Source: Xestospongia bergquistia (lineage: Eukaryota; Porifera; Demospongiae; Haplosclerida; Petrosiidae). Taken from it: a DNA stretch of 64,000 nucleotides. Positions within the stretch are counted from its first letter, which is position 1; each line of letters begins with the position of its first letter. Shown one piece after another: positions 5,980-43,983 of the stretch. Position numbers and translations under genes: made by a program. Under the pieces are notes generated by a model. That model searched no databases, was not told the origin of the DNA, and was given only the letters and a program-made list of their open reading frames with translations. The stretch spans positions 8,024,101-8,088,100 of the forward strand of contig OZ014413.1 of assembly GCA_963965975.1 (NCBI GenBank), in the 5' to 3' direction.

Positions 5980-6448
5980 ATGCTCTTCACTCTGTTGTTG
6001 CTCTACTTATCTTTAAGAAATACAGTATATGCTTACACATGTTCACATGGCTCAGTTCGTGTGGTAAGTCATTTTAGACTGTATGCATGTTTAGTGCTTT
6101 TTTAGTCCTCATTTTCCTATGGAGCTGTTGAAGTCTGCTTCAATAATACTTGGGGTAGTATTTGCACTGACTTCTGGGATAATAATGATGCCAGTGTGGT
6201 CTGTAAACAACTGGGATACTCTCCTTATGGTATATTATTGATATACATAGCCTATTGTAGTTCTTAAACTGTCCATCTGTTAGGTGCAGTAGGATCCTCT
6301 TTAGTTTACTATTCCTCATCTGCTACCAAACACAACATCGTTGATTTAAACTGTACTGGTAATGAGAACACTATACTGGACTGTCCTTATAATGGTCTCT
6401 CTGACTACTATTGTTCTCTGAGTAAAGATGCTAATATATTTTGTGAAT
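5980..6448 (+). other. Gene A signal peptide and SRCR domain 1
   Basis: Exons 5980-6063, 6106-6229 and 6284-6448. The leader [18 protein letters not shown] is followed by [10 protein letters not shown]. This is the only SRCR domain of the gene split in three: the first junction is phase 0, between SVRV and the AVEVC strand. All later junctions in the array are phase 1. Conserved words are [26 protein letters not shown] and DLNCTGNE. Gene B has the same three-exon layout at 43983-42445. Confidence 0.88.
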
Positions 6449-43800: not shown

Positions 43801-43983
43801 CCCAAGTATTATTCAAACACACCTCAACAGCTCCATAGGAAGATGATGACTGGATATAAGCATTAAGCACGCATGCAGTCTAAAATATTTTTTGTAACTC
43901 ACCACCCGAACTGAACCATTTGAGCATGGTTGAGCAATTACTGCATCTCTTAGAGATAAACAGAGCAAGAGAGCAAATAGCAT
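22600..43983 (-). CDS. Gene B: 30-SRCR transmembrane protein with IPT-AMOP-vWD-EGF tail, 70 exons
   Basis: Predicted single-pass surface protein of about 4,213 residues. Order: signal peptide, 30 SRCR domains (to about 3391), IPT (3392-3477), linker and AMOP (to 3788), vWD (3789-3977), linker, EGF (4064-4095), EGF (4096-4133), one transmembrane helix (about 4155-4184) and a short basic tail. All 70 exons agree in phase. The start ATG (43983-43981) opens the leader [17 protein letters not shown], homologous to gene A. The order IPT-AMOP-vWD-TM is that of SUSD2, Mesh and MUC4, which are adhesive, GDPH-cleaved proteins. The N-terminal array is homologous to gene A, the tail is not. SRCR29 is damaged but in frame. 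Expression is untested. Very large introns at 36957-39029 and 42610-43725 carry mobile DNA. Confidence 0.86.
22886..23142 (-). other. Gene B EGF-like domains 1 and 2
   Basis: Exons 23047-23142 ([20 protein letters not shown], then GYTGDIC) and 22886-22999 ([16 protein letters not shown], then [12 protein letters not shown]). Each has six cysteines. The second has the NGGTC type of core. Both are phase 1-1 exons and could be skipped or added without shifting the frame. Confidence 0.85.
23198..23504 (-). other. Gene B linker between vWD and EGF
   Basis: Exons 23368-23504 ([20 protein letters not shown], then [10 protein letters not shown]) and 23198-23318 ([20 protein letters not shown], then [12 protein letters not shown]). 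The C.ND..C..D...T pattern is the one seen after vWD in SUSD2/Mesh/MUC4-type proteins, so this is probably the end of that extended module. Confidence 0.7.
23548..24114 (-). other. Gene B von Willebrand factor D domain with GDPH site
   Basis: One exon, residues about 3789-3977. It starts [20 protein letters not shown], the classic vWD opening. It closes with [20 protein letters not shown] and a terminal cysteine. The GDPH tetrapeptide (24092-24103) is the Asp-Pro bond known to cleave spontaneously in SUSD2 and in some mucins. If it acts here, the SRCR array could be released or held by disulphides. Confidence 0.86.
24220..25108 (-). other. Gene B AMOP region
   Basis: Exons 24576-25108, 24405-24517 and 24220-24348. 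The AMOP core is [12 protein letters not shown], then [17 protein letters not shown], then [28 protein letters not shown], and [17 protein letters not shown] before the proline-rich PERPPPG. This agrees with AMOP (C..W, LP.CP, the CC pairs). The first exon also codes an unusual basic hydrophobic run before the domain ([19 protein letters not shown]). Confidence 0.82.
25166..25323 (-). other. Gene B linker between IPT and AMOP
   Basis: Exon coding [20 protein letters not shown], then [16 protein letters not shown] and ITVNISL. The V-T-L-x-W motif followed by I.V.ISL matches the region that sits between IPT/NIDO and AMOP in Mesh and SUSD2. No NIDO domain was recognised. Confidence 0.7.
25385..25642 (-). 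other. Gene B IPT/TIG domain
   Basis: One phase 1-1 exon of 86 residues: [40 protein letters not shown], then VVPASN and DLVVKI, GGTKFRY. The G-G-x-x-I-x-I-x-G start and the C-x-F-G and C-x-V-P strands mark the IPT fold. The exon is almost identical in gene C (54424-54681), more so than the neighbouring introns. Confidence 0.82.
25699..26088 (-). other. Gene B SRCR domain 30
   Basis: Exons 25909-26088 and 25699-25863. Typical words are [44 protein letters not shown] and [16 protein letters not shown]. It is the last SRCR domain before the IPT tail. Confidence 0.85.
26140..26430 (-). other. Gene B SRCR domain 29, halves fused by an in-frame deletion
   Basis: One exon of 291 bases where gene C has two exons (55382-55543 and 55171-55335) and an intron. 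About 82 bases are missing from B: the end of the first-half exon with its donor site, plus the start of the intron. The rest of the intron is now coding ([14 protein letters not shown]) and runs in frame into the second half. Two conserved cysteines and the VVC.QLGY strand are lost, so this domain probably does not fold normally. The microhomology caaata at the ends suggests end-joining. Confidence 0.8.
26491..27302 (-). other. Gene B SRCR domains 27 and 28
   Basis: Exons 27141-27302, 26933-27100 (domain 27) and 26701-26880, 26491-26655 (domain 28). Domain 27 reads [11 protein letters not shown] and [16 protein letters not shown]. Domain 28 reads [11 protein letters not shown] and [16 protein letters not shown]. 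Neither has an equivalent in gene A. They start the B/C-specific part of the array. Confidence 0.85.
27486..35255 (-). other. Gene B SRCR domains 10-26, collinear with gene A domains 4-20
   Basis: Exons high to low: 35082-35255, 34858-35028; 34626-34796, 34414-34572; 34183-34365, 33959-34120; 33739-33900, 33099-33263; 32870-33049, 32650-32820; 32436-32597, 32231-32392; 32009-32185, 31797-31949; 31586-31750, 31372-31539; 31142-31318, 30931-31098; 30715-30879, 30504-30668; 30272-30454, 30049-30228; 29828-29989, 29623-29784; 29391-29573, 29164-29337; 28785-29108 (domain 23, one exon); 28558-28734, 28352-28516; 28146-28304, 27931-28095; 27697-27876, 27486-27653. Each domain pairs with its A partner by sequence and by exon order. 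Confidence 0.84.
33264..33738 (-). other. Enlarged intron inside SRCR13 of gene B
   Basis: 475 bases. The matching introns are 52 bases in gene A (9401-9452) and 479 bases in gene C (62368-62846), so the growth predates the B/C split. The sequence is well kept between B and C, but no gene or known element was seen. Confidence 0.6.
35256..36091 (-). other. Intron of gene B with duplicated exon fragment and repeat DNA
   Basis: 836 bases against 155 in gene A. At 35424-35486 lies a partial copy of 36036-36110, which covers the splice donor and last codons of the SRCR9 exon (cttacattgacatattactg in both). Between them, 35665-35910 carries words of the gene A upstream repeats (cataacctctcataggagga and cttcttttgtgagg). 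It looks like repeat DNA inserted with a local duplication. Confidence 0.5.
36092..36476 (-). other. Gene B SRCR domain 9, equivalent of gene A domain 3
   Basis: Exons 36306-36476 and 36092-36253. It shares [20 protein letters not shown] and [12 protein letters not shown] with A (6987-7363), including the unusual RMLGY. The collinear part of the two arrays resumes here after the six extra B domains. Confidence 0.86.
37900..37952. repeat. Short palindrome atggtcaaaaaaaag...
   Basis: 53 bases with near-perfect arms (atggtcaaaaaaaagttgtg and its mirror cacagcttttttttgaccat) around gagacagcctgtct. It sits inside the hAT remnant and may be a tiny foldback insertion. Confidence 0.6.
38006..38242. 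mobile_element. MITE with 80-base inverted repeats and TA target duplication
   Basis: Element 38008-38240 starts cactgtaaaaattaatatgt and ends with its reverse complement. The arms are about 80 bases and nearly perfect, with a loop of about 70. It is flanked by TA on both sides (38006-38007, 38241-38242). Size, long arms and TA duplication fit a Tc1/mariner-type MITE. It lies inside the older hAT remnant, and the well-kept arms point to recent insertion. Confidence 0.8.
38769..38802. repeat. Perfect 34-base palindrome
   Basis: atctccaactttatatt followed at once by its exact reverse complement. No loop. Function unknown; it is far from the splice sites of the intron. Confidence 0.8.
39192..39584 (-). 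other. Intron inside SRCR7 of gene B
   Basis: 393 bases. Nothing recognised in it beyond AT-rich sequence. Other mid-domain introns of the gene are about 50 bases. Confidence 0.5.
40632..41042 (-). other. Intron between SRCR4 and SRCR5 of gene B
   Basis: 411 bases between the first and second two-domain units. No gene or element recognised. It marks the junction of the internal duplication. Confidence 0.5.
41972..42393 (-). other. Gene B SRCR domain 2
   Basis: Exons 42208-42393 and 41972-42154. It matches A domain 2 closely: [20 protein letters not shown], then [16 protein letters not shown], the unusual [12 protein letters not shown] in place of RQLGY, and GYSYGRVG. Confidence 0.87.
43328..43378 (+). 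repeat. Repeat word shared with gene C intron
   Basis: ttgccttccagcatgctacaactgt and flanks recur inverted at about 52400-52460 (aacatgctggaaggcaagag). Both copies sit within about 200 bases of a long (TA)n run, which suggests the same repeat family. Confidence 0.5.
43389..43663. repeat. Foldback element with (TA)n centre
   Basis: Left arm at about 43389-43475 and right arm at about 43571-43663 are inverted copies with some mismatches (ctcagtccaatacaaag, ggcaattgcatcat). A (TA)n run at 43534-43570 lies between them. It could be a MITE whose centre grew into a microsatellite. No clear target duplication. Confidence 0.6.

Follow-up and report, generated by a model that had tools for sequence, protein, structure and literature searches.

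A 64,000-nucleotide stretch of the Xestospongia bergquistia genome (GenBank assembly GCA_963965975.1, contig OZ014413.1, positions 8,024,101 to 8,088,100, forward strand; hereafter the window) contains three predicted SRCR genes, A, B, and C, the first two of which share an ordered block of 20 SRCR domains that continues into two unrelated membrane tails. Gene A (+ strand, 5980-20250) encodes a leader, 20 SRCRs, and a predicted Ig-EGF-Ig-(HRM-like)-GAIN-GPS-seven-transmembrane (7TM) tail of the adhesion G-protein-coupled receptor (GPCR) type, and gene B (- strand, 43983-21446) encodes a leader, 30 SRCRs, and an IPT-AMOP-VWD-C8-3(MUC4)-EGF-EGF tail with a single transmembrane (TM) helix. The two genes are convergent, with approximately 1.2 kb separating their stop codons. 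Gene C (- strand, 64000-48536), whose 5' part lies outside the window, is a tandem duplicate of B. The best overall explanation, which we regard as moderately probable, is that a block of promoter, leader, and array was duplicated in inverted orientation and that original and copy came to be carried on two different tails, forming a portable recognition cassette with two outputs.

With half-domain hidden Markov models (HMMs), gene A was found to hold 20 SRCRs, gene B 30, and the part of gene C inside the window another 20; all 70 were entered into a domain comparison and a tree. Membership of the SRCR family is supported by a PF00530 match of 80.1 bits for B23, by two matching stretches for B21-22, and by a profile built from 8 SRCR domains, which matches CD163 and other solved SRCRs. 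A preliminary description, made from the letters of this DNA, had proposed that the leader, SRCR1-2, and A SRCR3-20/B SRCR9-26 are collinear, and had named beforehand the pairing of A(n) with B(n+6) in an SRCR tree as the pattern to expect. Both proposals were borne out: for all 20 A domains the predicted B domain is the top match (56-93% identity, with the runner-up at 35-62%), and in the tree each A domain groups with its predicted B (and C) counterpart as a clade, support reaching 95/80 in 19 cases and 94/69 for A20/B26; the alignment, at 110 columns, is short for 70 rows. Summed over the domain matches, 1663 of 2147 aligned residues of the shared arrays are identical (77%). The domain peptides, which also served for dN/dS (nonsynonymous over synonymous divergence) and for odd/even scoring, are half-domain HMM matches joined end to end, with the split glycine codon doubled in many of them and some ends trimmed.

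The leader and a three-exon SRCR1 occupy 5980-6063, 6106-6229, and 6284-6448 in gene A (84/124/165 nt; best match B01, 93%) and 43983-43903, 43849-43726, and 42609-42445 in gene B (81/124/165 nt), and both leaders resemble signal peptides by eye. They are followed by SRCR2-20 in A (6503-15982) and by SRCR2 in B (41972-42393), after which B SRCR9-26 (27486-36476) match A SRCR3-20. B thus has six more SRCRs than A inside the array (SRCR3-8, 36524-41867, three two-SRCR units without an A counterpart) and four more at its end (SRCR27-30, 25699-27302). Splice-aware chaining recovered the proposed end points, 5980 and 43983, together with the gene anatomy.

Two SRCR types alternate along the array, a regularity that the preliminary description had not noted. 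With the test position held out, all 30 B positions score best under whichever model, odd or even, matches their place in the array, the training set being B1-26 minus the tested position, and also minus B3-8 when one of these was tested; the test covers B domains only. Margins are small at some positions, such as B20 (80.7 vs 72.4) and B29 (64.4 vs 58.6), the latter tested but not trained on. SRCR27-30, which lie outside the training set, fit the odd/even register in 4/4 cases, and a single branch of the tree (100/99 support) parts odd from even SRCRs. Because of this alternation, A can be read as 10 two-SRCR units and B as 15, and both differences between the genes, namely B SRCR3-8 and the break after A20/B26, sit at unit edges. 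Duplication by units of one or two SRCRs has been suggested for the SRCR genes of Amphimedon (PMC10855680). Nearly all domains are encoded by two exons, and a phase-1 start is found in 38/40 modelled array exons in A, 56/60 in B, and 37/38 in C. Eight cysteine columns are conserved, each present in 60-70 of the 70 domains. Group B SRCRs have eight cysteines, one of them in the LGC position; the 70 domains have no cysteine in the LG position and carry a VEVC-strand cysteine in its place, which sets them apart from group B. The cation-site residues are uninformative, both being acidic in 4/15 odd and 2/15 even B domains. Individual domains have also changed: B SRCR23 (28785-29108) and C SRCR23 (57898-58218) are without the internal intron present in A SRCR17, reflecting either loss in B/C or gain in A after the A/B split, and in B SRCR29 (26336-26482) the end of the first half-domain and the intron are gone, leaving a single open frame, with the C copy intact.

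Strong A/B nucleotide homology begins at A 5854/B 44100, 126 and 117 bp upstream of the respective ATGs, and stops at A 16049/B 27419, 67 bp beyond the last common exon in both genes. In the alignment this end falls within the phase-1 intron after A20/B26 (A 15983-16272, B 27303-27485), and the reading frame is continuous, in phase 1, across the A20-Ig and B26-B27 joints. The earlier claim that the genes part after A20/B26 is therefore upheld, since homology ceases once, inside that intron, which is the pattern predicted for one shuffling or fusion event. The accompanying statement that all joints are phase 1 is correct for SRCR-Ig-EGF-Ig and SRCR-IPT but fails for the GAIN/7TM exons and the AMOP exons. 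When the two tails were compared as proteins with the whole window, the only matches outside their own genes were chance EGF hits (E 0.19, 0.27, and 0.31) and a fragment of the gene A 3' end at 47287, which is marginal at the protein level (E 0.11) but clear as DNA. Apart from such chance EGF hits, no trace of either tail was detected in the other gene. Upstream of gene A, the segments 1052-1432, 1626-2252, and 4919-5552 are repeated DNA, 73-86% identical.

Beyond the breakpoint, gene A encodes Ig, EGF-like, and Ig exons (16273-16593, 16641 to ~16757, and 16813-17100), an HRM-like exon (17650-17912), GAIN-like exons (17961-18838), a GPS exon (18883-18986), and a 7tm_2 seven-helix domain with a cytoplasmic tail (19038-20250). 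The class B/adhesion 7TM assignment rests on PF00002 (60.7 bits against a cut-off of 20.6, 1.6e-16), and GPS scores 63.6 bits against 22.5 (2.5e-17). Pfam recognizes two Ig stretches, and its GAIN model has no match in the A tail; the GAIN/GPS/7TM part matches the sequences of the solved structures of ADGRG2 (1.7e-38) and ADGRL3 (3.9e-38), the ADGRG2 alignment (query residues 218-709) covering ~170 residues ahead of GPS as well as the 7TM, and by this alignment a GAIN domain is predicted. Within GPS, CNHLTNF (18954-18974) contains the predicted cleavage motif HL|T (HLT at 18960-18968), and the resulting TNFAILL is, we presume, close to the latrophilin tethered agonist. The previously proposed Ig-EGF-Ig-HRM-GAIN-GPS-7TM order accordingly stands for Ig, GPS, 7TM, and, through alignment, GAIN, with EGF just below its Pfam cut-off (20.8 vs 21.5 bits) and HRM also below. 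Given selection on the arrays, signal-peptide-like leaders, a canonical GPS, and a seemingly intact 7TM, gene A is a probable signalling receptor bearing an SRCR array. Exposure to microbial patterns raised one SRCR gene and one adhesion GPCR gene in the sponge A. aerophoba (PMC6208332), which would fit a microbe-sensing role, though different genes are involved.

Gene B continues from SRCR27-30 into an IPT/TIG exon (25406-25642), linker and AMOP exons (24220-25108), a VWD exon (23548-24114), C8-3 (MUC4-like) exons (23198-23504), two EGF-like exons (23142-23047, below the Pfam cut-off, and 22999-22886, above it), an exon with the stalk, the TM helix, identified by inspection, and the start of the cytoplasmic tail (22605-22841), and a last exon (21446-21522). 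Pfam supports VWD (1.1e-14), C8-3_MUC4 (1.3e-13), AMOP (1.2e-8), and TIG/IPT (9.5e-6), giving the order AMOP-VWD-(C8-3)-EGF-TM. A GDPH motif lies within the VWD of both B (24092-24103) and C (51177-51188). No NIDO domain appears among the Pfam hits to the 824-aa B tail, and the tail is preceded by 30 SRCRs rather than proline-, threonine-, and serine-rich (PTS) mucin repeats; gene B is therefore not filed as a mucin. All elements of the tail as first described (SRCR27-30-IPT-AMOP-vWD-EGF-TM) were recovered, that list having omitted the MUC4-type C8-3 and the second EGF-like exon. The adhesive output assigned to B is putative, its tail being MUC4-like with GDPH. Most probably the protein functions in adhesion to, or trapping of, the ligand class recognized by A, and it may shed its array. 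If both cleavage motifs, which the preliminary description did not mention, are functional, the array would be detachable from its membrane stub, as a subunit of its own, in A and in B.

Divergence between the genes helps to order these events. Over 2147 codons, A and B differ by dN 0.126 and dS 0.399 (ratio 0.32), and over 2155 codons, B and C differ by dN 0.033 and dS 0.099. The B/C tandem duplication is visible as a 90% match between 20160-24123 and 47287-51208, its left edge lying in the last exon of A, and a decayed, frameshifted copy of the last residues of gene A (about the last 90 nt of its coding sequence; 47287-47376, + strand, counterpart starting at 20160) remains 3' of C. Based on the lower B-C dS and this A fragment, an array of units came first, the block was then copied and joined to two tails, and B was later duplicated to give C, which in the window comprises SRCR11-30 and a B-type tail. 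B/C identity ranges from 82 to 98.6% in full 500-base segments, with 72% in a partial segment over the damaged SRCR29, a spread that may reflect conversion or uneven selection. C also contains, between its AMOP and VWD exons (51208-53176), ~2 kb that B lacks and that, from its open reading frames (ORFs), looks like a decayed transposon; the two ORFs scanned came near the cut-off of no Pfam family.

We infer from these features that a block extending from ~126 bp before the ATG through the leader and the array up to the present B SRCR26 underwent an inverted duplication, and that copy and original were joined to two unrelated membrane tails through phase-1 introns. Gene A would thereby have become an adhesion GPCR, B would have kept or gained four further SRCRs together with its MUC4-like IPT-AMOP-VWD-C8-3-EGF-TM tail, and a later tandem duplication of B would have produced C. 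Inverted copying beside a resident adhesion GPCR gene would account for the orientation and the ends in one step. Both proteins would probably display a long SRCR array at the cell surface. In A, with cleavage at GPS, a ligand or a force acting on the array would release the tethered agonist TNFAILL and trigger signalling. For B and C, cleavage would take place at GDPH, and the proteins would function as sheddable adhesive or trapping receptors. The array could then serve as a portable cassette of two-SRCR units on a signalling and a non-signalling receptor for related ligands, ligand overlap between A and B being plausible at 77% identity.

The divergence data also bear on whether a functional pair exists at all. 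A/B exons are 81-86% identical versus 57-65% for introns (5 of 7 blocks measured). Compared intron by intron, with identity expressed as matches over the longer intron and with three A-B pairs having an intron of at least 400 nt, as well as joints whose model lacks an intron, omitted, 30 of 32 are 16-66% identical and two reach 84% and 90%. Because exons outscore introns and dN/dS is 0.32, both arrays are under purifying selection. Per-domain values range from dS 0.12 (A2/B2) to 0.73 and from dN/dS 0.12 to 0.85. The overall dS of 0.40 and the 30 diverged introns lend no support to A/B gene conversion as a general process; small local tracts are possible, considering A2/B2 and the two conserved introns. 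In light of the 23% of aligned residues that differ, the ten additional SRCRs of B, and the diverged introns, nothing seen keeps the arrays identical, and the initial phrase "one recognition surface" was an overstatement. Both conserved introns are 49 bp long. The one after A SRCR13/B SRCR19 (90% A/B identity; A 12976-13024, B 30455-30503, C 59554-59602) contains an 8-10 bp hairpin in each of the three genes and, if retained, leads to a stop after a similar short peptide in each, making a soluble array form conceivable; the other follows A SRCR7/B SRCR13 (84%; A 9618-9666, B 33050-33098).

A possible, though less favoured, alternative is that A and B are ordinary paralogues of one SRCR ancestor, in which an old tail replacement by exon shuffling was followed by unrelated jobs and different ligands, with no functional pair. 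The 23% protein divergence and diverged introns would be expected in that case, and Amphimedon SRCR genes are numerous and often tandem (PMC10855680). Purifying selection on the shared array, the conserved order of all 20 domains, the common start region, and the ~120 bp of upstream homology speak against it, yet none of these points demands a shared ligand. It is somewhat less likely still that the adhesion GPCR form of A is ancestral and that B took SRCR27-30 and its MUC4-like tail from another SRCR gene. SRCR adhesion GPCRs are indeed present in Amphimedon (PMC4302439), and no paper combining SRCR with AMOP was found in the open-licence literature, but SRCR27-30 fit the register of the array as expected of one original array, a weak test, as SRCRs of any gene with the same two-SRCR unit would often fit. 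That array and tail of A (or B) belong to separate genes or wrongly joined sequences is very improbable: the joints are known from assembled sequence and gene models alone, but dS 0.40 is too diverged for haplotypes, the phase-1 frame is open through both joints, the 290-bp A intron contains no ATG-led stretch in the Ig frame, C repeats the array-tail order of B, and SRCR and 7TM occur in a single Amphimedon protein (PMC4302439). Equally improbable are classical paired receptors, in which a single ligand meets two opposite outputs and gene conversion keeps the partners alike, as in Siglec-11/16. The neighbouring genes with one array and different outputs speak for this, and the uneven per-domain dS and the two conserved introns would leave room for small local conversion; against it stand the overall dS, the other 30 introns, and a B cytoplasmic tail in which no immunoreceptor tyrosine-based inhibitory or activating motif (ITIM or ITAM) was seen by eye.

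Several points weigh against the copied-cassette explanation itself. A and B are predicted genes, and their models, obtained by splice-aware chaining, depend on consensus splice scoring and on hint peptides picked by hand; that of B includes doubtful small exons (38237-38283 and 37710-37749) and a mis-split SRCR11. An additional B exon at 21620-21793 without a C-model counterpart is regarded as spurious, and the IPT-linker joint of the C model is uncertain. A leader exon from elsewhere may be spliced onto the A Ig exon; in favour of the explanation, the 3 ATG-led stretches of at least 15 residues found in 15983-16340 are all in frames other than that of this exon. The HRM score (17.4 bits against a cut-off of 26.2) permits only the term HRM-like, B SRCR29 is damaged, and weak A-B matches farther upstream (3584-4140/46585-46013, 61%; 563-811/46199-45924, 60%) are unexplained. 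Common ligands are uncertain at 23% residue difference, and identity falls to 56% in A5/B11, the pair conserved least. G-protein coupling of A and cleavage at GPS and GDPH are predictions, either tail may be the original one, and one scan of genome contigs revealed no second species with an A/B pair. As for the surroundings, the window is AT-rich (28-36% GC) with abundant short introns, and an AATAAA lies 25 nt downstream of the gene B stop codon, whereas none was found in the 550 nt past that of gene A.

The scan of genome contigs returned nine loci (L001-L009). Two of them, L006 and L008, come from sponge-symbiont metagenome-assembled genomes (MAGs) and look like host sequence, since their SRCRs, as in A-C, come in two parts; their 11 SRCRs show no clean type alternation, and no 7TM or AMOP was recognized by eye in the 14 longest ORFs of each, no profile search having been run. 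The remaining seven are bacterial MAG contigs (L001-L005, L007, and L009), four of them titled myxobacterial, that encode relatives of the SRCR query. In addition, an IMG/VR contig (L010, 9560-12061), giant-virus-like by impression, encodes a protein with one SRCR domain; scans of viral contigs for the A tail and the B tail found nothing. Within the open-licence literature, no papers were found for SRCR with AMOP, the matches listed for SRCR, VWD, and sponge included a ctenophore genome and placozoan cells, and a matched array pair did not appear in titles or abstract starts among the matches listed. The novelty left open by the preliminary description is thus confined to the matched pair and the SRCR/AMOP-VWD fusion, as SRCR adhesion GPCRs were already known in Amphimedon.

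If the copied-cassette explanation is correct, the locus would offer a local and relatively dated example of a new adhesion GPCR architecture arising when a promoter-leader-ectodomain cassette acquires a tail via a phase-1 intron. It would also constitute a natural domain swap, in which an ordered 20-SRCR block stands on both a GPCR and a MUC4-like anchor, making ligand overlap, cell-type sharing, and tail contribution testable. A more ambitious and decidedly tentative proposal is a sponge two-output system, in which one SRCR cassette with its start region sits on two self-cleaving anchors, GAIN/GPS-7TM and VWD/GDPH-TM, so that the same ligand class could elicit G-protein signalling or lead to trapping, adhesion, or array release, perhaps with a soluble form from the retained intron. 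Such a system would touch on the reason for hundreds of sponge SRCR genes and on the route by which SRCR recognition reaches the cell interior.

Known systems resemble parts of this arrangement. A role for domain shuffling in how adhesion GPCRs evolved has been argued for (PMC12716839), and the Amphimedon queenslandica SRCR adhesion GPCRs Aq712029 and Aq715659 (Krishnan et al. 2014, PMC4302439) likewise place several SRCRs before an adhesion-type 7TM in a demosponge; gene A may be a relative or orthologue of them, but in the excerpts of that paper no sister gene is described in which the array is joined to a different tail. Placozoan secretin/adhesion-type GPCRs with C-type lectin domains (PMC6321704) also combine a pattern-recognition ectodomain with a 7TM, but differ in the domain used, and a matched single-pass partner is not mentioned in the excerpted text. 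The genes in the window share with the sponge SRCR superfamily of Peng et al. (2024, PMC10855680) tandem genes, one-/two-SRCR units, and an extra conserved cysteine. That study describes a seven-cysteine group C, mostly three exons per SRCR, and a detailed cluster with two to six SRCRs, in contrast to the eight cysteine columns, two exons, and 20-30 SRCRs found here. Gene B shares AMOP, VWD with GDPH, C8-3_MUC4, EGFs, and one TM with MUC4, to which SUSD2 and Mesh are similar, but an SRCR array replaces the mucin repeats, an IPT is added, and NIDO is lacking among the tail hits; GDPH cleavage in MUC4 is itself termed putative and autocatalytic (PMC8660890). Finally, A and B share with vertebrate paired receptors (Siglec-11/16, PMC5701461; CEACAM, PMC5112662) related ectodomains on different output tails. 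Siglec-11/16 are homogenized by gene conversion, whereas A and B show no general homogenization, and the CEACAM pair relies on ITIM/ITAM-type outputs, compared with a 7TM against a MUC4-like tail here. A two-output SRCR system, if true, would therefore differ from Ig-type paired receptors.

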